Assembly (NCBI GenBank): GCA_017509785.1 | Contig: JAFWOT010000002.1 | Location: 62,001-126,000 of the forward strand | DNA: 64,000 nt | Direction: 5' to 3' | Origin: Clostridia bacterium | GTDB lineage: Bacteria; Bacillota; Clostridia; Christensenellales; CAG-138 | In this document: positions 6,601-53,217 of the stretch, in pieces | How the letters are laid out: the number at the start of each line of letters is the position of its first letter | Position numbering within the stretch: position 1 is the stretch's first letter | Program-made: the position numbers and the translations under genes | Notes under the pieces: generated by a model | What the model was told of the DNA's origin: nothing | Database searches by the model: none | The model's input: only the letters and a program-made list of their open reading frames with translations

Positions 6601-9369
6601 TTACTCGACGGGGATCCAGTCCGCGTGAGCCAGCGGAAGCATGAAGTAGGGATCGTCGAATATTATCGGCGCTATTATCTCGAGAACGTCGCCGCGCTCC
6701 GTTATCCAAACGCCGTGCTTTTCCTCATCGTCCGAACATATCATCCACACGCCGTCCTCTTCCGCAAGGCCGGTGTAAAAGCGGGTGTTCGAGATGATAT
6801 CGTTGACGAGCGCCTCGGCGTCGTCCGCTCCGAGCCCCCTGTGCCAGATCAGCACGAAGCGGTTGGGGTCGTTTTCGTCTGCGTCCCATACGTCTATGTC
6901 GACGCAGTCGTATTCGATCTCGATCGTATCCGCCGTGACGGTGACGCTCTTGAAGCGCCCCTTGGCGGAGGTCTGCGCGTTATGGAGCAAATAGTAACCG
7001 TCAAGCCCGTAATATACGCTGTCGGGATCACCGCGGCCCTCGCGCAGGGCGGCGGTGAACGCATCGAGATCGGTGTAGCGCACTTCTTCTTGGGTTTCGG
7101 GCTCCGGCGTTTCTTCGTATGACGGCGTTGCAGCGGGCTCATCAAGGGATACCCATGTAGCATACGGCCAGGTTGCAATATTGCTGTCCATAATGAACGG
7201 GAATCTGAACTCAAAAACCTCGCCGCTTTCGTTTACCCAAACATTTGCCATTTCGGGGCCCCAAGTCCAGACGACCCATACATCGTTAATGAGCCGGACG
7301 GCTTCAAAGGTTTCATATCCGGCGCCGATGCTTTCAGCCAATTCTTCCGCTTCGGCAGGATCGGCGTTCCTGTGCCATACGAACGTATAATCTCTGGTGT
7401 CGGTCTCACCGTTCGACATAGTGGAGGTACACACATATTCGTACTTCACCATATCGGCTGAGGCTGATATGGTGATAGGATCCCTATCGGGAACAAACCC
7501 TATGCAAGGAGTATAATACCCTTCGAGCCCATAAAACATGCTGTCGGGATCGCCGCGGCCCTCGCGAACTGCGGCGTCGAACTCTTCGAGGCTCGAGAAG
7601 ACCGCGGTCTCCGGGCGGGCGATCCACAGAGCGTATCCGTCGCAGCCCTTTGCCGTGCCGGTCAATTCGCCGTTCACGAAGGGCCTGTCGGAATACTGCA
7701 GGAGGATATCCACGGCAAGCCTGTCGGTCTCGCTCCAATCGAAGGTCCGCATGAATTCCATGAGCTCCGCGGCGTCCGCAAGCCGTATGGTCTCCGCCGT
7801 GTCGTTTTCGGCGACTCCGAAGACCTGTATCTCCATGAGCGTGCACGGGTAGTCTTCGGGCAGTACGAGCTCGATCTCACTGTCGGCGTAAAGCACGGGG
7901 AGCTCGTCGCTGATCTTCGGGAGCAGGCTGTAAAGGGGCATGCCGTCCGCCTGAAGTGCGGAGCCCTGTCCCGACTCGGGGTCGGACCCGTAATCGACGG
8001 TGGACCAGAGCATATGCCGGTAAGGCAATATCTCGTTCACAGCGCCGTTTTCGTCCGTCGCCATTATGACGAGCCCGCCGGCGGTCTCCGGCCCGACGAT
8101 CTCCGGCGTGGGCTCGGGCTCCGCTGAGACGGGTTCCCCGACGAACCCGGCGCGGCAGAGGGCCTTCACTTCCTCTTCGGTGAATTCGGGGCGCTCGAAA
8201 TCCCACGTGCGGCTGATGCAGAAGCAATCCTCGCCCTGGTGCCAGTAGAATCCGATCTCGCCGCCGTATCTGCCGGAGTATTCCCACTCCGTCATGAATA
8301 CGTCGCCGTACTGCGTGACACGGCTCAGGCTGCCTGCGGGATGCAGATAGTCCTCAAGCTCATCGGGCTTCGTGTCGCGCAGATAGGAGAACTTCAAGCC
8401 TTCGAAACTATGATTGAGGATCTTGCCGTAAGCGAGGAAGACCTCCGAATCGTCCACCTCCATTACGGAGATCGCGTCCCTGTCTGCGGGGGGATCGTAA
8501 AGCGCCCAATACCCGTTTAGGCCGTAAAGCGCGCTCGTTTCGGGAATATTGCCCGATATCGCGTCGAAGAACGATTTTTCGGTATGGAACATGAACCTGC
8601 TGTCCGGCTTCGGCGCGGCGGGAAGTATTTCGCGCACGGCGGAGCAATAGTCGATTATCGTCTCTTCCTCATAATAGGGGGGTACGTTGAGCTCCAGCAC
8701 GTGCCCGTCCTGCTCCCAGCACGCTGTTTTATACAGCCAGCGGTCAATAATGTAAACGTCCTTGGATCCGGTATCGATCTCGGTATATTCGACGCCGGGC
8801 AGGTCGATCCTCTTCGAGGGATCCTTATAGAAGCCCATGCTGAAATTGTTTTCGATATTCAGCTCGTAATGCACCCAAACCATATCGGGATCCGCCTCGA
8901 TGTATTGGAATTCCGCTTCATCCGGAAGCTTTTCGGGCACGTAATAGTACGAGAGCCCGTAAAGCACGTCTTTCGGATCGTCATGCGGGCCGCCGAGGAT
9001 CCACTCCTCAAGCTCCTCCTGCGAATAGAAGACCTGCCTGTCGCCGTAAGTCGGGACCTGCGTGGCCTCTGGCACGGCGTCGCTCGGGGAAGAGGTATTC
9101 GCCCACTTCGGCCGGAATACGGGCTGCTCGGCCGCGGGCTGCTCGGTCGCGGGCTGATCGCCCGCGGGCCCGCCGATCTGCCTTGAGGCGGAGGTGTGCA
9201 GGATCGCCGCGACGGTCCCCAGCACGAAGACCGCGGCCAGCACCGAGGCGACCGCCTCGATCCAGCGGAAGCGGCGGCGGCGCGGCTTTGCCGCCTCCGT
9301 CACGAGGCTGTCGTCGATATCGCCGAGAACGTCGGCGCTCTTCAATGATCTTTCGAATCTTTCATCCAT
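6601..9369 (-). CDS. Large membrane-anchored partner of an ECF sigma factor, 922 aa with four repeats
   Basis: The start overlaps the upstream sigma gene by 8 nt, with AAAGGAGG before ATG 9369. The cytoplasmic N terminus carries [11 protein letters not shown] (about 17-27), matching IDEDLVDEAA in the partner protein at 11822-12751. One membrane segment follows (about 36-58), then a long extracytoplasmic region. That region holds four copies of a motif like [23 protein letters not shown] (near 115, 260, 590 and 760); copies three and four are most alike. Between copies two and three is an unrelated 150-aa segment. Likely an anti-sigma or sensor protein by position; the repeat domain is not recognised. 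Confidence 0.8.
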
Positions 9370-9898
9370 CGAATATGCCCTCCTTTATTAGGTAGGTCCT
9401 GAGTTGATCCCTCATCCTGAACAGGAGCGAGGTCACCTTGCTCTCCGAAACGGAGAATTCCCCCGCGATGTCCTTGATCGGGTAAAAATACCAGTAACGG
9501 CGAATGAACATATCGCGCTTATACGGGGGCTGCTTCTTCAAAAACCGGCTTATGAGCTCCGCCGTGCCGAGGCTGTCCGCTTCCGGTGCGGGGAGCGTGC
9601 TCTCGATCTCCGAAAGGGGGATCTCCAGCCCCTGCTTCGGCTTTAACGTGCGGGCCCGCATGAGCGCCTCGTTGCGCGCGGCTTTGGCGGCGTAGGCCTT
9701 GAGGTCGCCGGGCTGAGCCGGAGGTATCGCCGACCAGAGACGGAACATGACGCCGTTAAGGCACTCCTCCACGTCCCGCGGATCCTCCAGGACGTTGGAG
9801 ATGATGCTTCGGCACAGGCCGCCGTATTTCTCGAAGAGAAGCTCTGCGGCCCTCTCGTCCCTCCTGTTCAAAAGCCCGAGTATCTCGCTGTCCTCCAT
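9362..9898 (-). CDS. RNA polymerase sigma factor, ECF type (pair 1)
   Basis: 178 aa. Region 2: EKYGGLCRSIISNVLEDPRDVEECLNGVMFRLW (about 24-56). Region 4: YKRDMFIRRYWYFYPIKDIAGEFSVSESKVTSLLFRMRDQLR, a helix-turn-helix that recognises the -35. The charged linker LKPKQGLEIPLSEIES joins them. AAAGGAG precedes the ATG by 5 nt. It is coupled to the membrane protein at 6601-9369, its likely anti-sigma. A 12-bp AAAATATATTTT palindrome lies about 105 bp upstream (10003-10014), as for the other two sigma genes here. Confidence 0.9.
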   Translation of the reverse strand: MEDSEILGLLNRRDERAAELLFEKYGGLCRSIISNVLEDPRDVEECLNGVMFRLWSAIPPAQPGDLKAYAAKAARNEALMRARTLKPKQGLEIPLSEIESTLPAPEADSLGTAELISRFLKKQPPYKRDMFIRRYWYFYPIKDIAGEFSVSESKVTSLLFRMRDQLRTYLIKEGIFDG

Positions 9899-9977
9899 GG
9901 AGCTCCTTTCTTCGCGCGGGCGCGTTCTCCCGAAAAGCGCGTTCGTCGTTTCGCTTTCATATTCTAAGATGCAAAGA

Positions 9978-9998
9978 GCCCCGCATCCGTTGCGGGGC
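9978..9998 (-). terminator. Probable terminator of the response-regulator gene
   Basis: 8-bp stem GCCCCGCA/TGCGGGGC (9978-9998) 15 nt after the response-regulator stop, with a short TCTTTG tail on the minus strand. The tail is weak, so some readthrough into the sigma gene is possible. Confidence 0.6.
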
Positions 9999-10002
9999 GG
10001 TC

Positions 10003-10014
10003 AAAATATATTTT
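10003..10014. promoter_or_regulatory. Palindromic AT box upstream of ECF sigma gene 1
   Basis: Exact palindrome AAAATATATTTT, 105 bp before the sigma start at 9898, overlapping the response-regulator stop codon. The same 12-mer occurs upstream of the other two ECF sigma genes (13385, 52578) and inside the palindrome at 20190. A shared operator is inferred. Confidence 0.5.
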
Positions 10015-10681
10015 AATCCATCCTGTAGCCGACGTTCCTTACCGTGGTTATGCATCTGCCGCTCTCGCCGAGCTTCTGCCGCAGGGTCTTTATATGCATG
10101 TCGACGGTGCGGGTCTCCCCCGCGAAATCGTAGCCCCAGACGGTGTTTATCAGCTTCTCGCGGCTCTGGACGGCGCCCTTGTTGCTCATGAGGGCGAAGA
10201 GCAGCTCGTATTCCTTGAAGGTCAGCTCCAGCTCCTGCCCGTCGACGCTCACGGTGCGTTTGTCGCAGTCCATTATGATGTTCCCGACGATGAGCTTATC
10301 GTGCGCCGCCTCGCGCACGCGGCTCCTGCGCAGGAGCGCCTTCACGCGGGAGACGAGCTCCATCACGCCGAAGGGCTTCGTCAGGTAATCGTCCGCTCCC
10401 TGGTCGAGCCCGCGGACCTTGTCTATCTCGCTCGTCTTGGCGGTGACCATTATGACCGGCACGCTCTCGAGCCGCGCGTCCGCCCTCAGGCGGGAGAGTA
10501 TCTCCAGCCCGTCCTCCCCGGGGAGCATTATGTCGAGCATTACGAGCTCGGGGATATCGTCCCACATCTTCTCGAAAAGCTCCCTGCCCGTCTCGCAGGC
10601 GATCACATCGAACCCGCTCGAGGTGAGCGCGTACCGCTCCATCTCGCGGATGTCGGCGTCGTCTTCAACTATGTAGATCAT
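10013..10681 (-). CDS. OmpR/PhoB-family response regulator (orphan)
   Basis: 222 aa. Receiver domain 1-118 with acidic pocket EDD (6-8), phospho-acceptor Asp50 (VMLDIMLPGEDG), Thr80 and Lys102 (TKPFG). The C-terminal winged helix (about 128-222) has ELTFKEYELLFALMSNKG and TVDMHIKTLRQKLG, which bind tandem DNA repeats. No sensor kinase lies in the window beside it, so its partner is encoded elsewhere. It has a strong promoter of its own (10714-10742) and AAAGGAG 10 nt before the ATG. It is divergent from the YwaF-like gene. Confidence 0.93.
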   Translation of the reverse strand: MIYIVEDDADIREMERYALTSSGFDVIACETGRELFEKMWDDIPELVMLDIMLPGEDGLEILSRLRADARLESVPVIMVTAKTSEIDKVRGLDQGADDYLTKPFGVMELVSRVKALLRRSRVREAAHDKLIVGNIIMDCDKRTVSVDGQELELTFKEYELLFALMSNKGAVQSREKLINTVWGYDFAGETRTVDMHIKTLRQKLGESGRCITTVRNVGYRMD

Positions 10682-11821: not shown

Positions 11822-12751
11822 TTAATACGTCCCTGAAGCAAACAAATATTCGTTAGAAAAATACAGTTTATACGCCAGCTCGGGATCAGCCGGGAAACAC
11901 TCGATCTGCTCCTTTGTCAGCAGTGCGCTGCAATGCCAACTATTACCATCGTATTCGATAGATCCTATGTCGATCCAAAGACCATTTGCTTCAAGCCTTT
12001 CTGCCTCGGCGACGACAGCTCTTCGCATCTCGTCGGATCTGTTAATAATGTCGGTCAGGCCTTCCCTAACATAATATCGAGCTTTCTCAACTTTTTTAAT
12101 GGCTTCTCTGTATTCCTCTGCTTTTGACTGCGGAATGCTGCCGGATATTTCGGATAAGTATCTTTCCGTAAAACCTTCAAGTCCTCGGGTTTCCCAAAGA
12201 TTGGCCTCCTCGGGAGTAAAATTCCGGCCGTTCTCCTCGAGCCATACAAGTTCGCCTTCAATAAACTCGACATATGCCGGATCGCTTTCCGCCTGCACGC
12301 ACTCCTTCTGATACTTTTTGGCGAGCTGATCGATCTCTGCGGAGCCGATGTAGAGAAACACGATTTTAACATCGAATAAACAGTTTGAAGTCTCCTCGCT
12401 AGATAGCGCTTCGGGAAGGGTCCCCATTAACCTCACTGTGCCTTTATCCTGAACCGAATTGAGTGAAGGGCAATCTTCGCCGCTGCCGTTCACTATCCTC
12501 ATCGAGCTAATATCCGGCGTAGGGACGGGAGTCTCCGCCGCCTCCGTCGGCAGGGCCGCGCTCTGTTCCGGCGCGGGCTTATTTACCAGCTTCGTCGCCG
12601 CGAATATCGCGCCGCCCAGAATCAGCACCGCCGCCGCCGCGAGCAGCCGGGGGATAAAGCTCCTGTCCGCGAAGCGGTACTCCGCCGCCTCGTCGACAAG
12701 GTCCTCGTCTATCGAATCGATAGCTTTGAAAAGAGTCTCCTTATCTATCAT
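11822..12751 (-). CDS. Membrane-anchored partner (putative anti-sigma) of ECF sigma 2
   Basis: 309 aa. N-terminal cytoplasmic segment MIDKETLFKAIDSIDEDLVDEAAEYR shares the ID-DLV-EAA motif with the 922-aa partner of sigma 1. One membrane segment (about 33-54), then an extracytoplasmic domain of 250 aa, Glu/Ala-rich with heptad-like stretches around 120-220. Start and sigma stop overlap as ATGA (12748-12751). The extracytoplasmic domain is not recognised. A sigma-binding role for the N terminus is inferred from position and the shared motif. Confidence 0.78.
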   Translation of the reverse strand: MIDKETLFKAIDSIDEDLVDEAAEYRFADRSFIPRLLAAAAVLILGGAIFAATKLVNKPAPEQSAALPTEAAETPVPTPDISSMRIVNGSGEDCPSLNSVQDKGTVRLMGTLPEALSSEETSNCLFDVKIVFLYIGSAEIDQLAKKYQKECVQAESDPAYVEFIEGELVWLEENGRNFTPEEANLWETRGLEGFTERYLSEISGSIPQSKAEEYREAIKKVEKARYYVREGLTDIINRSDEMRRAVVAEAERLEANGLWIDIGSIEYDGNSWHCSALLTKEQIECFPADPELAYKLYFSNEYLFASGTY

Positions 12752-13305
12752 ATAAATTCGCCTTCGCTTTCAAGATATTTTTTGAGCCCGGCGCGGAGCT
12801 TCGACAGCCTTTTCGAGAGCCTTTTCGGGTGGATCCCCGTTCTTTTCGAGAGCTCCTCTATCGAGTCGCCGTACCGGTACCTCCGCACGAACAGCACTCT
12901 CCTCTCGGGCTCGAGGCTCCTCAGCCAACGGGATATCATCGCGGAAAGCTCGGCCGCGTCGATGCTGTCTTCGACACCCGCGGCGGAGGGTATGCATTCA
13001 TTCAGCTCGTCAAGCGATCCAATGCCGGCGAGACCCCTCTTCCTTGCCGCCTTCCTTCGGTGCGCGTCGAGCGCGGCGTGCTTCGTTATGCTCGCGAGAT
13101 ATGCCCGCACTGACTTCGGGTCTTCGGGGGGGATGCTGTTCCACGCTTTGAAAAGCGCGTCGTTCACCGCCTCCTCCGCGTCTTCGTTGTTCTTAAGGAT
13201 GTTTCTCGCGACGCTGAACATAAGCCCGCCGTATTGTTCCCGGGCGGCGGATATCGCACGCTCATCACGGCTGTTGAACAGCTCAATAAGCTCGGCGTCC
13301 TGCAT
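12748..13305 (-). CDS. RNA polymerase sigma factor, ECF type (pair 2)
   Basis: 185 aa. Region 2 includes EEAVNDALFKAWNSIPPEDPKSVRAYLASITKHAALDAHR; region 4 includes ERRVLFVRRYRYGDSIEELSKRTGIHPKRLSKRLSKLRAGLKKYL. It is similar in layout to sigma 1 (both begin with an LFNSRDERA or LLNRRDERA motif), suggesting paralogues. GGGAG lies 10 nt before ATG 13305. Coupled by a 4-nt overlap to its membrane partner. An AAAATATATTTT palindrome lies 80 bp upstream. Confidence 0.92.
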   Translation of the reverse strand: MQDAELIELFNSRDERAISAAREQYGGLMFSVARNILKNNEDAEEAVNDALFKAWNSIPPEDPKSVRAYLASITKHAALDAHRRKAARKRGLAGIGSLDELNECIPSAAGVEDSIDAAELSAMISRWLRSLEPERRVLFVRRYRYGDSIEELSKRTGIHPKRLSKRLSKLRAGLKKYLESEGEFI

Positions 13306-13384
13306 CGCTTCACATCTCCCTTCGGTTTTTAAAGGCCTTCACCAATTAAGACGGATTTTTCGGGGCGATATCCCCCCTGCTTCA

Positions 13385-13396
13385 AAAATATATTTT
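13385..13396. promoter_or_regulatory. Palindromic AT box upstream of ECF sigma gene 2
   Basis: Exact AAAATATATTTT, 80 bp before the sigma start at 13305 and just behind the terminator of the DUF1295 gene. On the sigma strand it reads GATAAAATATATTTTTGA, close to GATTAAAATATATTTTGA at the first sigma gene. Confidence 0.5.
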
Positions 13397-18436: not shown

Positions 18437-19885
18437 TTACGGCAGCGTTATTTCATAGGGCAGATCGCTCGCTTCGCCCGCGGGCGTGCAGAAGCCGAGG
18501 GAGAAGAGCCCGCCTTCGGCGGTCTCATACAGTATGCTGTCGGCCTTGATCCCCGAAACGGCGAATTTGACGTCAGCAGCCTTCGGCTCGACGCCGAGCG
18601 CATCGTATGTATTGCCGGCAAAGAGATCTGCGGCGGCGTCGATCAGCACTCCGCGGCCCATCCTCATGGAAATAAAGGCTGCGTTTTCCGCGAGCTTGAC
18701 GGGCGCACCGCCTGTGAACAAGGAAGAATACGCAGCTCCGGAGGAGTCGATGAACACGATATGGTCGTTAAGATCGACCCCGCTGAATTCATCAAAGTAA
18801 CTGCCGCTGTAGCCGCACCTGTCGATTCGGGCAAAAACGATATTTTCCGCAAGCTTGGCCTCGGTTTCCGCTCCTTTGCGGGCAAAGCGGACGTGCAGGT
18901 CACCGTAAGCGTCTATATAATAGTATTCGCCCGCCCAGCCTCCGGCGTCTATTACGTTTTCGGCGACAAGCACGCATTCTCCCTTAGGCTCGGTCCTTCC
19001 GGGAACATCCGAGTCGTAGGTGCCGAAAAGCTTTGAAGCGCGGTGCTCATACTCCGCGTTCCTAGTATTGTCCGCATAGAAGCAGCCGTCGAGCGTAAGA
19101 TAGGCCGCTGCGCCGAGCGCGCATCGCGGATCGACGTTCTCGGCGATGAGCGCGGGAGAGCCGTCCTCGGTTGGGAAGCTTATATCCCATGCATAAAGCT
19201 TGTTATCGGCTGTGACAGTGCAGACGGAAACACCGTCCTGCCCTATATTCACGGCGTTTTCAAAGAGCTTTACAGGCTCCTCGGCCTTTTCGAAGCTGCC
19301 GAACATGGAGCCGGGGTTGGAGCCCCTCAGCCAAACGGAGCCGTCGTTTTTCAAATAGATCAGGCTCTCGAAATATTGCCCGTCGTACTTGTATTCCCTC
19401 TGTGCAAAGCCGAACATGCAGGCCGTTTTTACGTCGGTATCGAGCAGGAAGGCAGTGCCGGGCTTTATGAAGCTGACGGTCATGGAGCCGTCCGCGTCTA
19501 TATTGTCCATATAGGAGCGATCGAGTTCTATCTCTGCGGGAACGCACTCCGCGCCGCCGAAAACGCCGTCCTTGTTTTCTCCTTCTACTGCGTACATACG
19601 CCCGTCCTCGGTGATATATACCGTTCCTACGGCGGGATCGCTGACGATGCTTGTCCTCGGGGATTCAAGCAGCGAGACTTCCTGCTTCGGGACCTCTGTG
19701 GGTGCTTCGGTGGGTGCTTCGGTGGGTGATTCGGTCGCGGGCTCCTCACCGGGATCGGTCGCCTCCGGCGCGTCAGTGACCTTTGCAGGCTCCTGCGCGG
19801 AGGGATCGCCGGGAGAGCGGGTGCAGGCGGTCGGCAAAACCAACACAAAAGAAAGAATCAATATCAGAGCAATTATTCTTTTCAT
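18437..19885 (-). CDS. RCC1-like repeat lipoprotein, 482 aa
   Basis: Signal MKRIIALILILSFVLVLPTAC with the lipid Cys at 21, then a Pro/Thr/Glu linker with ATESPTEAPTEAPTEVP (to about 68). The body has repeats such as GTVYITEDGRMYAVEGEN, SLIYLKNDGSVWLRGSN, CTVTADNKLYAWD and AAYLTLDGCFYADN, which resemble the DG-x-V/L-Y-A-W-G strands of RCC1 beta-propellers, here degenerate. Surface-anchored binding protein is the inference; no enzyme motif is seen. AAGGAGG precedes the ATG by 8 nt. Unusual leader of about 175 nt from promoter 20069-20097. Confidence 0.8.
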   Translation of the reverse strand: MKRIIALILILSFVLVLPTACTRSPGDPSAQEPAKVTDAPEATDPGEEPATESPTEAPTEAPTEVPKQEVSLLESPRTSIVSDPAVGTVYITEDGRMYAVEGENKDGVFGGAECVPAEIELDRSYMDNIDADGSMTVSFIKPGTAFLLDTDVKTACMFGFAQREYKYDGQYFESLIYLKNDGSVWLRGSNPGSMFGSFEKAEEPVKLFENAVNIGQDGVSVCTVTADNKLYAWDISFPTEDGSPALIAENVDPRCALGAAAYLTLDGCFYADNTRNAEYEHRASKLFGTYDSDVPGRTEPKGECVLVAENVIDAGGWAGEYYYIDAYGDLHVRFARKGAETEAKLAENIVFARIDRCGYSGSYFDEFSGVDLNDHIVFIDSSGAAYSSLFTGGAPVKLAENAAFISMRMGRGVLIDAAADLFAGNTYDALGVEPKAADVKFAVSGIKADSILYETAEGGLFSLGFCTPAGEASDLPYEITLP

Positions 19886-20097: not shown

Positions 20098-20189
20098 TAA
20101 ATTATTAGCTTCCGATCAGCCCTTTTTTCGTGCCGGCCGGGAAAAGCCCTTCGCCTATACAGACACTTTTGGGTGCAAATGTCACACCT

Positions 20190-20211
20190 TTTGAAAAATA
20201 TATTTTTCAAA
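20190..20211. promoter_or_regulatory. 22-bp perfect AT palindrome
   Basis: Core TTGAAAAATATATTTTTCAA (20191-20210) extended by T/A on each side; contains the AAAATATATTTT 12-mer found upstream of the sigma genes. It lies 88 bp before the AI-2E family transporter ATG and 305 bp before the divergent lipoprotein gene. Candidate operator. Confidence 0.55.
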
Positions 20212-21582: not shown

Positions 21583-21652
21583 CGAACGAGCCCGCCAAAA
21601 GGTTCCCAAAGATTTTAATAAATTTTTAAAAAATAAATATATTTTTCCGCCG

Positions 21653-37247: not shown

Positions 37248-37288
37248 GCGCCATGCCGTGCGCGAATATAATATATTTTAAAAGTGAA

Positions 37289-37317
37289 TTGACAAAGTTC
37301 CCGAATAGAAGTATAAT
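37289..37317 (+). promoter_or_regulatory. Perfect sigma-A promoter of the 178-aa lipoprotein gene
   Basis: TTGACA (37289-37294), 17-nt spacer, TATAAT (37312-37317); an exact consensus. An AATATATT palindrome (37270-37277) lies 12 nt upstream of the -35. Confidence 0.92.
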
Positions 37318-52509: not shown

Positions 52510-52527
52510 AAAACAATATATTGTTTT
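52510..52527. promoter_or_regulatory. 18-bp perfect AT palindrome
   Basis: AAAACAATATATTGTTTT, between the divergent promoters of the 111-aa protein and ECF sigma 3; 22 nt upstream of the sigma -35. Candidate operator related to the AAAATATATTTT boxes. Confidence 0.5.
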
Positions 52528-52577: not shown

Positions 52578-52589
52578 AAAATATATTTT
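52578..52589. promoter_or_regulatory. Palindromic AT box at ECF sigma gene 3
   Basis: Exact AAAATATATTTT directly behind the -10 of sigma 3; a protein bound here would block transcription start. Same 12-mer as at 10003 and 13385. Confidence 0.5.
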
Positions 52590-52647
52590 CCCTTTCCGCA
52601 ATAAAACGGGCCCTTCGCGGGTTAACAGGGTGAAAGGAGATGAGAGC

Positions 52648-53217
52648 ATGCTTATATTCACCTCGATGGCGGAGCCCCGCGAACCGGACGGGAGCGAGCT
52701 GATCGAAAGCCGGCTTCGGATGCTTGCCGAGGGCGACTCCGCCGCCATGGAACAGATATACGAGCTGACGCGCACGGCGGTCTACGCCTACGCGCTCTCG
52801 CTGCTCAAAAACTCCTTCGACGCGGAGGACGTCATGCACGACTGTTATCTTCGGCTCTACGCCTCGGCGGGCGCGTACGACCCGCGGGGCAAGCCCATGG
52901 CGTACATACTGAGGATAGTCCGCAACCTTTGCCGCGACAGGCTCGCGGAGCGGGCGCGGCGGGCGGAGGTCACGGAGGAGGAGTGGGGATCCCTTCTCCG
53001 GACGGACGATATCCCGAGCAGTCTTCAAGCCGCGGAGTGGATGAGCATACTCCGCGACGACGAGAGGCAGATAGTCCTGCTGCACGCGGTGGCGGGCTTC
53101 AGGCACAGGGAGACGGCCTCCTTCATGGGGATGCCGCTCTCGACGGTGCTCTCGAAATACTCCCGCGCTATAAAGAAGCTCAGGAAACACATAACGGAAA
53201 GGGAAGATCGGATATGA
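52648..53217 (+). CDS. RNA polymerase sigma factor, ECF type (pair 3)
   Basis: 189 aa. Region 2: AYALSLLKNSFDAEDVMHDCYLRLYASAGAYDPRGKPMAYILRIVRNLCRDRL. Region 4: ERQIVLLHAVAGFRHRETASFMGMPLSTVLSKYSRAIKKLRKHI. AAAGGAG precedes ATG 52648; the frame is open to 52549 but lies over the promoter. Its TGA overlaps the ATG of the RsgI-like gene (ATGA, 53214-53217), which is its likely anti-sigma. Differs from sigma 1 and 2 in sequence. Confidence 0.92.
   Translation: MLIFTSMAEPREPDGSELIESRLRMLAEGDSAAMEQIYELTRTAVYAYALSLLKNSFDAEDVMHDCYLRLYASAGAYDPRGKPMAYILRIVRNLCRDRLAERARRAEVTEEEWGSLLRTDDIPSSLQAAEWMSILRDDERQIVLLHAVAGFRHRETASFMGMPLSTVLSKYSRAIKKLRKHITEREDRI

Follow-up and report, generated by a model that had tools for sequence, protein, structure and literature searches.

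The 12-bp palindrome AAAATATATTTT is a real promoter element that is common to one genus of Clostridia, and in our judgement it is probably an UP element of palindromic form that serves ECF promoters and some sigma-A promoters. It occupies the A/T-rich site just 5' of the -35 (about -40 to -60), as an UP element requires, and AAATATATTTT, contained within the 12-mer, matches the consensus AAAWWTWTTTT in full. This combination of position and consensus favours an UP element over a repressor specific to sigma genes.

Copies of the palindrome in the window

The window, by which we mean the whole stretch of 64,000 nucleotides that was analysed, holds four exact copies of AAAATATATTTT (Table 1) and two more at one mismatch. 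The four exact copies are real and far beyond chance: dinucleotide shuffles give 0.03 expected copies at up to one mismatch compared to 6 observed. An earlier, sequence-only reading had located all four, had argued that chance was very unlikely and had placed the fourth inside a 22-bp palindrome, where the exact copy is indeed found at 20195-20206; its list of copies holds for the exact ones and misses those at 21634 and 37268. A Sigma70_r4_2 search gave three ECF-type sigma genes in the window, whose start codons lie 104, 79 and 58 bp from their respective copies, within 1 bp of the 105, 80 and 59 bp given before.

The copy 5' of sigma 1 shares 2 bp with the stop codon of a response-regulator gene (10013-10681, minus strand). 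That of sigma 3 had been described as lying on the predicted start point, which is correct for a sigma-A-like TTGCAA-N17-TACAAT that would initiate inside the palindrome. A Pfam scan of the anti-sigma pieces and of four lipoprotein-like proteins gave no family. We also observed an 18-bp palindrome, AAAACAATATATTGTTTT, 5' of sigma 3 (52510-52527), which includes the core AATATATT.

Table 1. Promoter elements and associated genes in the window
Feature	Position (strand)	Remarks
UP-type element AAAATATATTTT, sigma 1 promoter	10003..10014 (-)	31 nt 5' of CATC-type -10
Sigma 1 ECF-type -10 and start region CATCTTAGAATATGAAAG	9954..9971 (-)	Score 12.7/19, weak
Sigma 1 putative -35 CGCAAC	9989-9994	Within terminator-like hairpin; by eye
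ECF sigma 1 gene	9362..9898 (-)	Pfam Sigma70_r2 and r4_2 (r4_2 just below cut-off)
UP-type element AAAATATATTTT, sigma 2 promoter	13385..13396 (-)	
Sigma 2 ECF-type -10 and start region CGTCTTAATTGGTGAAGG	13336..13353 (-)	Score 17.3/19; palindrome 31 nt away
GATATC in sigma 2 -35 region	13367-13372	
ECF sigma 2 gene	12748..13305 (-)	Pfam Sigma70_r2; r4_2 below cut-off
AAAATATATTTT with proximal A-tract (TCAAAAGG)	20195..20206 (-)	Complete UP consensus; 5' of TGTGAC 20181-20186
ECF-type -10 and start region TGTCTGTATAGGCGAAGG	20148..20165 (-)	Score 17.0/19; toward lipoprotein-like gene 18437-19885 (-)
AAAATATATTTT 5' of sigma 3	52578..52589 (+)	No promoter call
Sigma 3 GTGAAAGG of ECF start region	52630-52637	Usual offset; -10 poor
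ECF sigma 3 gene	52648..53217 (+)	Pfam (scan from 52651)
ATAATATATTTT, one mismatch	37268..37279 (+)	9 nt 5' of perfect sigma-A promoter
Sigma-A promoter behind 37268 copy	TTGACA 37289-37294, TATAAT 37312-37317	
TAAATATATTTT, one mismatch	21634..21645 (+)	7 nt 5' of TTGCCT-N17-TATAAT; next gene MurC-like (named by eye)

Distribution in the genome and the genus

In the bacterium's own genome (2,400,542 bases in 30 contigs) AAAATATATTTT occurs 19 times exactly while the reversed sequence of equal composition is absent; at up to one mismatch the counts are 65 and 3. Exact copies sum to 102 in 13 genomes of the genus, compared to 8 for the reversed sequence, while forward and reversed counts are about equal in other families of the order. 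With a strict composite pattern, 5 of the 13 genomes of the genus yielded 17 matches and 2 of the family's 90 other genomes yielded 3; the control yielded none. The preference for this spelling is thus mostly limited to the genus. Twelve loci from named relatives contain no close motif (the best has two mismatches), and in a Clostridia MAG (L206) an identical -10 and start region follow a different A/T tract.

Thirteen of the 19 exact copies are placed 29-31 or 41 nt 5' of an ECF-type -10, in promoters that precede ECF sigma/anti-sigma operons or lipoprotein genes. Two more lie 5' of sigma-A promoters (31 nt away at L003), and four, which count against an UP element, have no promoter call (sigma 3, L008, L010 and the far L016 copy). 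Seven ECF sigma/anti-sigma operons are preceded by 8 exact copies, 7 of them at 57-104 bp before the start codon (that of L055 adjusted by hand) and one extra copy 305 bp away. Other exact copies precede proteins with a lipobox, recognized by eye (L002, L005, L007, L013), or an ABC transporter (L006).

At up to one mismatch and within 230 bp, the palindrome accompanies 9 of the 12 own ECF genes of the RDE-type family and 36 of 106 ECF genes in the 13 genomes. The 106 comprise the 12 own genes and 94 fetched upstream regions (93 from relatives plus L138 of the own genome), with six weaker regions (L181-L186) left out. Equally long A/T palindromes, drawn at random about 100 times, accompany on average 0.54 ECF genes compared to these 36. 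Across the 13 genomes the number of copies follows that of ECF matches, which reaches 39 per genome (Spearman 0.78). The genome-wide search suggested by the sequence-only reading therefore reveals that promoters of ECF sigma and lipoprotein genes are strongly preferred, and not the even spread through AT-rich intergenic DNA that it had named as the opposite outcome.

Promoter architecture and spacing

Aligned upstream regions show a module consisting of AAAATATATTTT, a variable -35 (TGTGATATC, TGTAAC, GTTACC or CGCAAC), the -10 CGTCTTTATA, the start region GGTGAAGG and a ribosome site. For the ECF genes of the genus, CGTC follows the palindrome's end at a distance of 29-31 in 18 of 25 promoters and of 39-41 in the other 7, with nothing between (motif counted at up to two mismatches). 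The own genome gives 29-31 in 18 and 41 in 2 of 20 calls over a scanned range of 5-56. The step between the two classes is 10-11 bp, one turn of the helix.

Fifty-five of the 106 ECF upstream regions reach 13.4 of 19 or more for the ECF-type -10 (CGTC), with varying -35; the -10 scores for both ECF and sigma-A are home-made, and the thresholds (12.5, 12.7 and 13.4 of 19) were chosen after the first alignments had been inspected. The 30 of these 55 promoters that have no motif carry a T-tract from -38 to -32 and an A-tract from -29 to -26, counted from CGTC, which corresponds to the TTTT-nnn-AAA form of UP element. By eye, their T-tract is often the terminator T-run of the upstream gene.

Several further features were observed in these promoters. 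The CGCAAC-like -35 of sigma 1 lies within the loop of a terminator-like hairpin (window 9960-10002), likewise in the relatives' L141, L147 and L156. Short palindromes (TGAAGGCCTTCA, TGAATGCGCATTCA, TGAAAGGCCTTTCA) occur at the predicted transcript start at many loci and, in imperfect form, after the sigma 2 -10 (window 13331-13343, minus strand); they are perfect over at least 10 bp in 7 of 48 promoters, where shuffles expect 0.095, and are maybe a 5' hairpin or an operator. At L005:1409-1601 a single lipoprotein gene has three ECF-type promoters in tandem before it, spaced at 89-92 bp and each with a palindrome of its own.

The palindrome also serves sigma-A promoters and is not tied to one sigma factor. 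Sites with up to one mismatch are found 9-10, 17-21 or 29-32 nt 5' of sigma-A-type -35 elements (window 37268; L004, L190, L197, L199). We read 55 of the 65 such sites, the others being unlisted or too near an end, and 38 of the 55 have a promoter call within 80 nt compared to 15 of 47 control A/T sites. The 26 sigma-A distances show a periodicity of about 10 bp: R is 0.57-0.59 with a simulated p of 0.0006, and the Rayleigh test at 10.5 bp gives R 0.57 and p about 2e-4, compared to R 0.07 for the control. In this analysis, which covered periods near the known helical repeat, some sites enter once per strand and two that overlap are counted twice; 16 distances from the control sites show no periodicity. 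At L004:1501 and L191:701 divergent sigma-A promoters flank the palindrome, which could act on both of them. Another class of promoter, CTGTCCACTT followed by GCTTGCTATATAAGTGA, has the same upstream element (L001:1597, L005:1409, L041:143, L201:701) and is probably read by another sigma factor.

What binds the palindrome

An UP element lies just upstream of the -35 and may consist of one or both subsites, as stated in passages of PMC10911233. In the part of PMC13293322 that gives the consensus AAAWWTWTTTT, a sequence of this kind made a C. difficile promoter 40-fold stronger, and excerpts of PMC3817407 report that in E. coli the ECF promoters of GC-rich genomes were often active only with an added synthetic UP element; portions of PMC5333181 were also considered. 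The 20195 copy reads AAATATATTTT-TCA-AAA-GG-TGTGAC, and 14-15 of 19 composites have an A-tract at offsets 2-5 behind the palindrome, while most copies at sigma genes are without a proximal A-tract. The perfect two-fold symmetry of the palindrome, which an UP element does not require, counts against this reading.

On this model the alpha-CTD of RNA polymerase would bind the palindrome and would strengthen a promoter with any sigma, leaving sigma specificity to the -35 and -10. The -10 of the module presumably belongs to the ECF sigmas, and the sigma/anti-sigma operons may be autoregulated. Within the genus the element is found at the ECF-type promoters of these operons and of genes for lipoproteins; sigma-A promoters carry it more rarely. 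The alpha-CTD motifs R..NC and NLGxKS are intact in the own genome. R265, N268, C269, G296, K298 and S299, numbered as in E. coli, where these residues contact UP DNA, are present there and in all 9 genus relatives read, and the pattern matched in 28 of 29 relatives read. The 16S gene, whose rRNA promoter would have provided an independent test of the UP element, was not found in the assembly.

The sequence-only reading had inferred a shared repressor, or a nucleoid protein, controlling the envelope-stress sigma factors. The element's strong bias toward promoters of ECF sigma and lipoprotein genes agrees with it, and this bias of a shared element is the part of the claim that stands. The protein itself we reject as very improbable, because the palindrome also serves sigma-A promoters of unrelated genes. 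It further lies 5' of the -35 and leaves the promoter core uncovered, many sibling sigma genes lack it or have T/A tracts instead, and phased spacing and the UP consensus count in the same direction. With these observations the AT-rich UP element, named earlier as a first fallback, fits best. The second fallback, a terminator remnant, was rejected on sequence and on spacing: terminator-like hairpins adjoin some copies and terminator T-tracts seem to act as a substitute element, but the 12-mer has no G or C, hence no G+C stem of its own, and its distance to the downstream promoter is fixed. Together with plain AT-rich intergenic DNA, which does not account for 19 copies versus 0 of the reversed sequence, we find it scarcely credible.

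Oddly for an UP element, one spelling is favoured in the genus by about seven- to tenfold above the other sequences compatible with such an element. Among the 100 matches to AAAWWTWTTTT listed, 61 (at 42 places) read AAATATATTTT and seven other forms together make up 39, and in 264 kb AATATATT occurs 18 times where other A/T palindromes of 8 bp occur at most 7 times. One fixed spelling makes a palindrome-binding activator the main rival. The palindrome would then be the operator of a putative dedicated dimeric activator or architectural protein, acting from -50, -61 and -72 on ECF and sigma-A promoters, an explanation we regard as possible but doubtful. The near-fixed, two-fold symmetric AATATATT core resembles a sequence-specific site, the preference over other A/T sequences is strong, and helical phasing equally suits class I activators. 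Enrichment is found mainly in the genus, where the alpha-CTD contacts are unchanged: an altered alpha-CTD was rejected as the cause of the genus preference since its contact residues are identical in genera without enrichment, and the alpha-CTD alone is therefore insufficient to explain it. Against an activator, sibling ECF promoters carry ordinary T/A tracts at the same place, the site agrees with the generic UP consensus, and the many unrelated genes served form no single regulon. A broader form, in which a putative global activator or architectural protein binds AATATATT in helical register 5' of both promoter types, replaces the UP element and acts as a direction-neutral booster, at divergent promoters too, appears rather unlikely. 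A literature search for AATATATT returned nothing on this element among the matches listed.

With the palindrome, ECF promoters and the genes they control can be located from sequence alone in a gut lineage that is GC-rich and has a large set of ECF paralogues. As an UP element it would be a natural case of one spelling selected many times, and such repeated selection makes a sequence preference of the alpha-CTD, or a hidden competitor protein, testable.

Comparison with known promoter elements

E. coli sigma-E promoters have A/T-rich upstream regions. UP elements of E. coli and Clostridia promoters, such as C. difficile slpA in the relevant part of PMC13293322, share with the palindrome the consensus, the site 5' of the -35 and independence of sigma class. 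They differ in that here one nearly invariant palindromic spelling recurs across many promoters of one genus, and in that the known elements include a proximal A-tract whereas here the distal half often stands alone, and its position shifts by one helical turn at a time. The ECF promoters with synthetic UP elements described in excerpts of PMC3817407 have the same type of sequence directly 5' of the -35 and -10; compared to those additions, the element reported here is natural, present in multiple copies and common to paralogous ECF operons with differing -35s.
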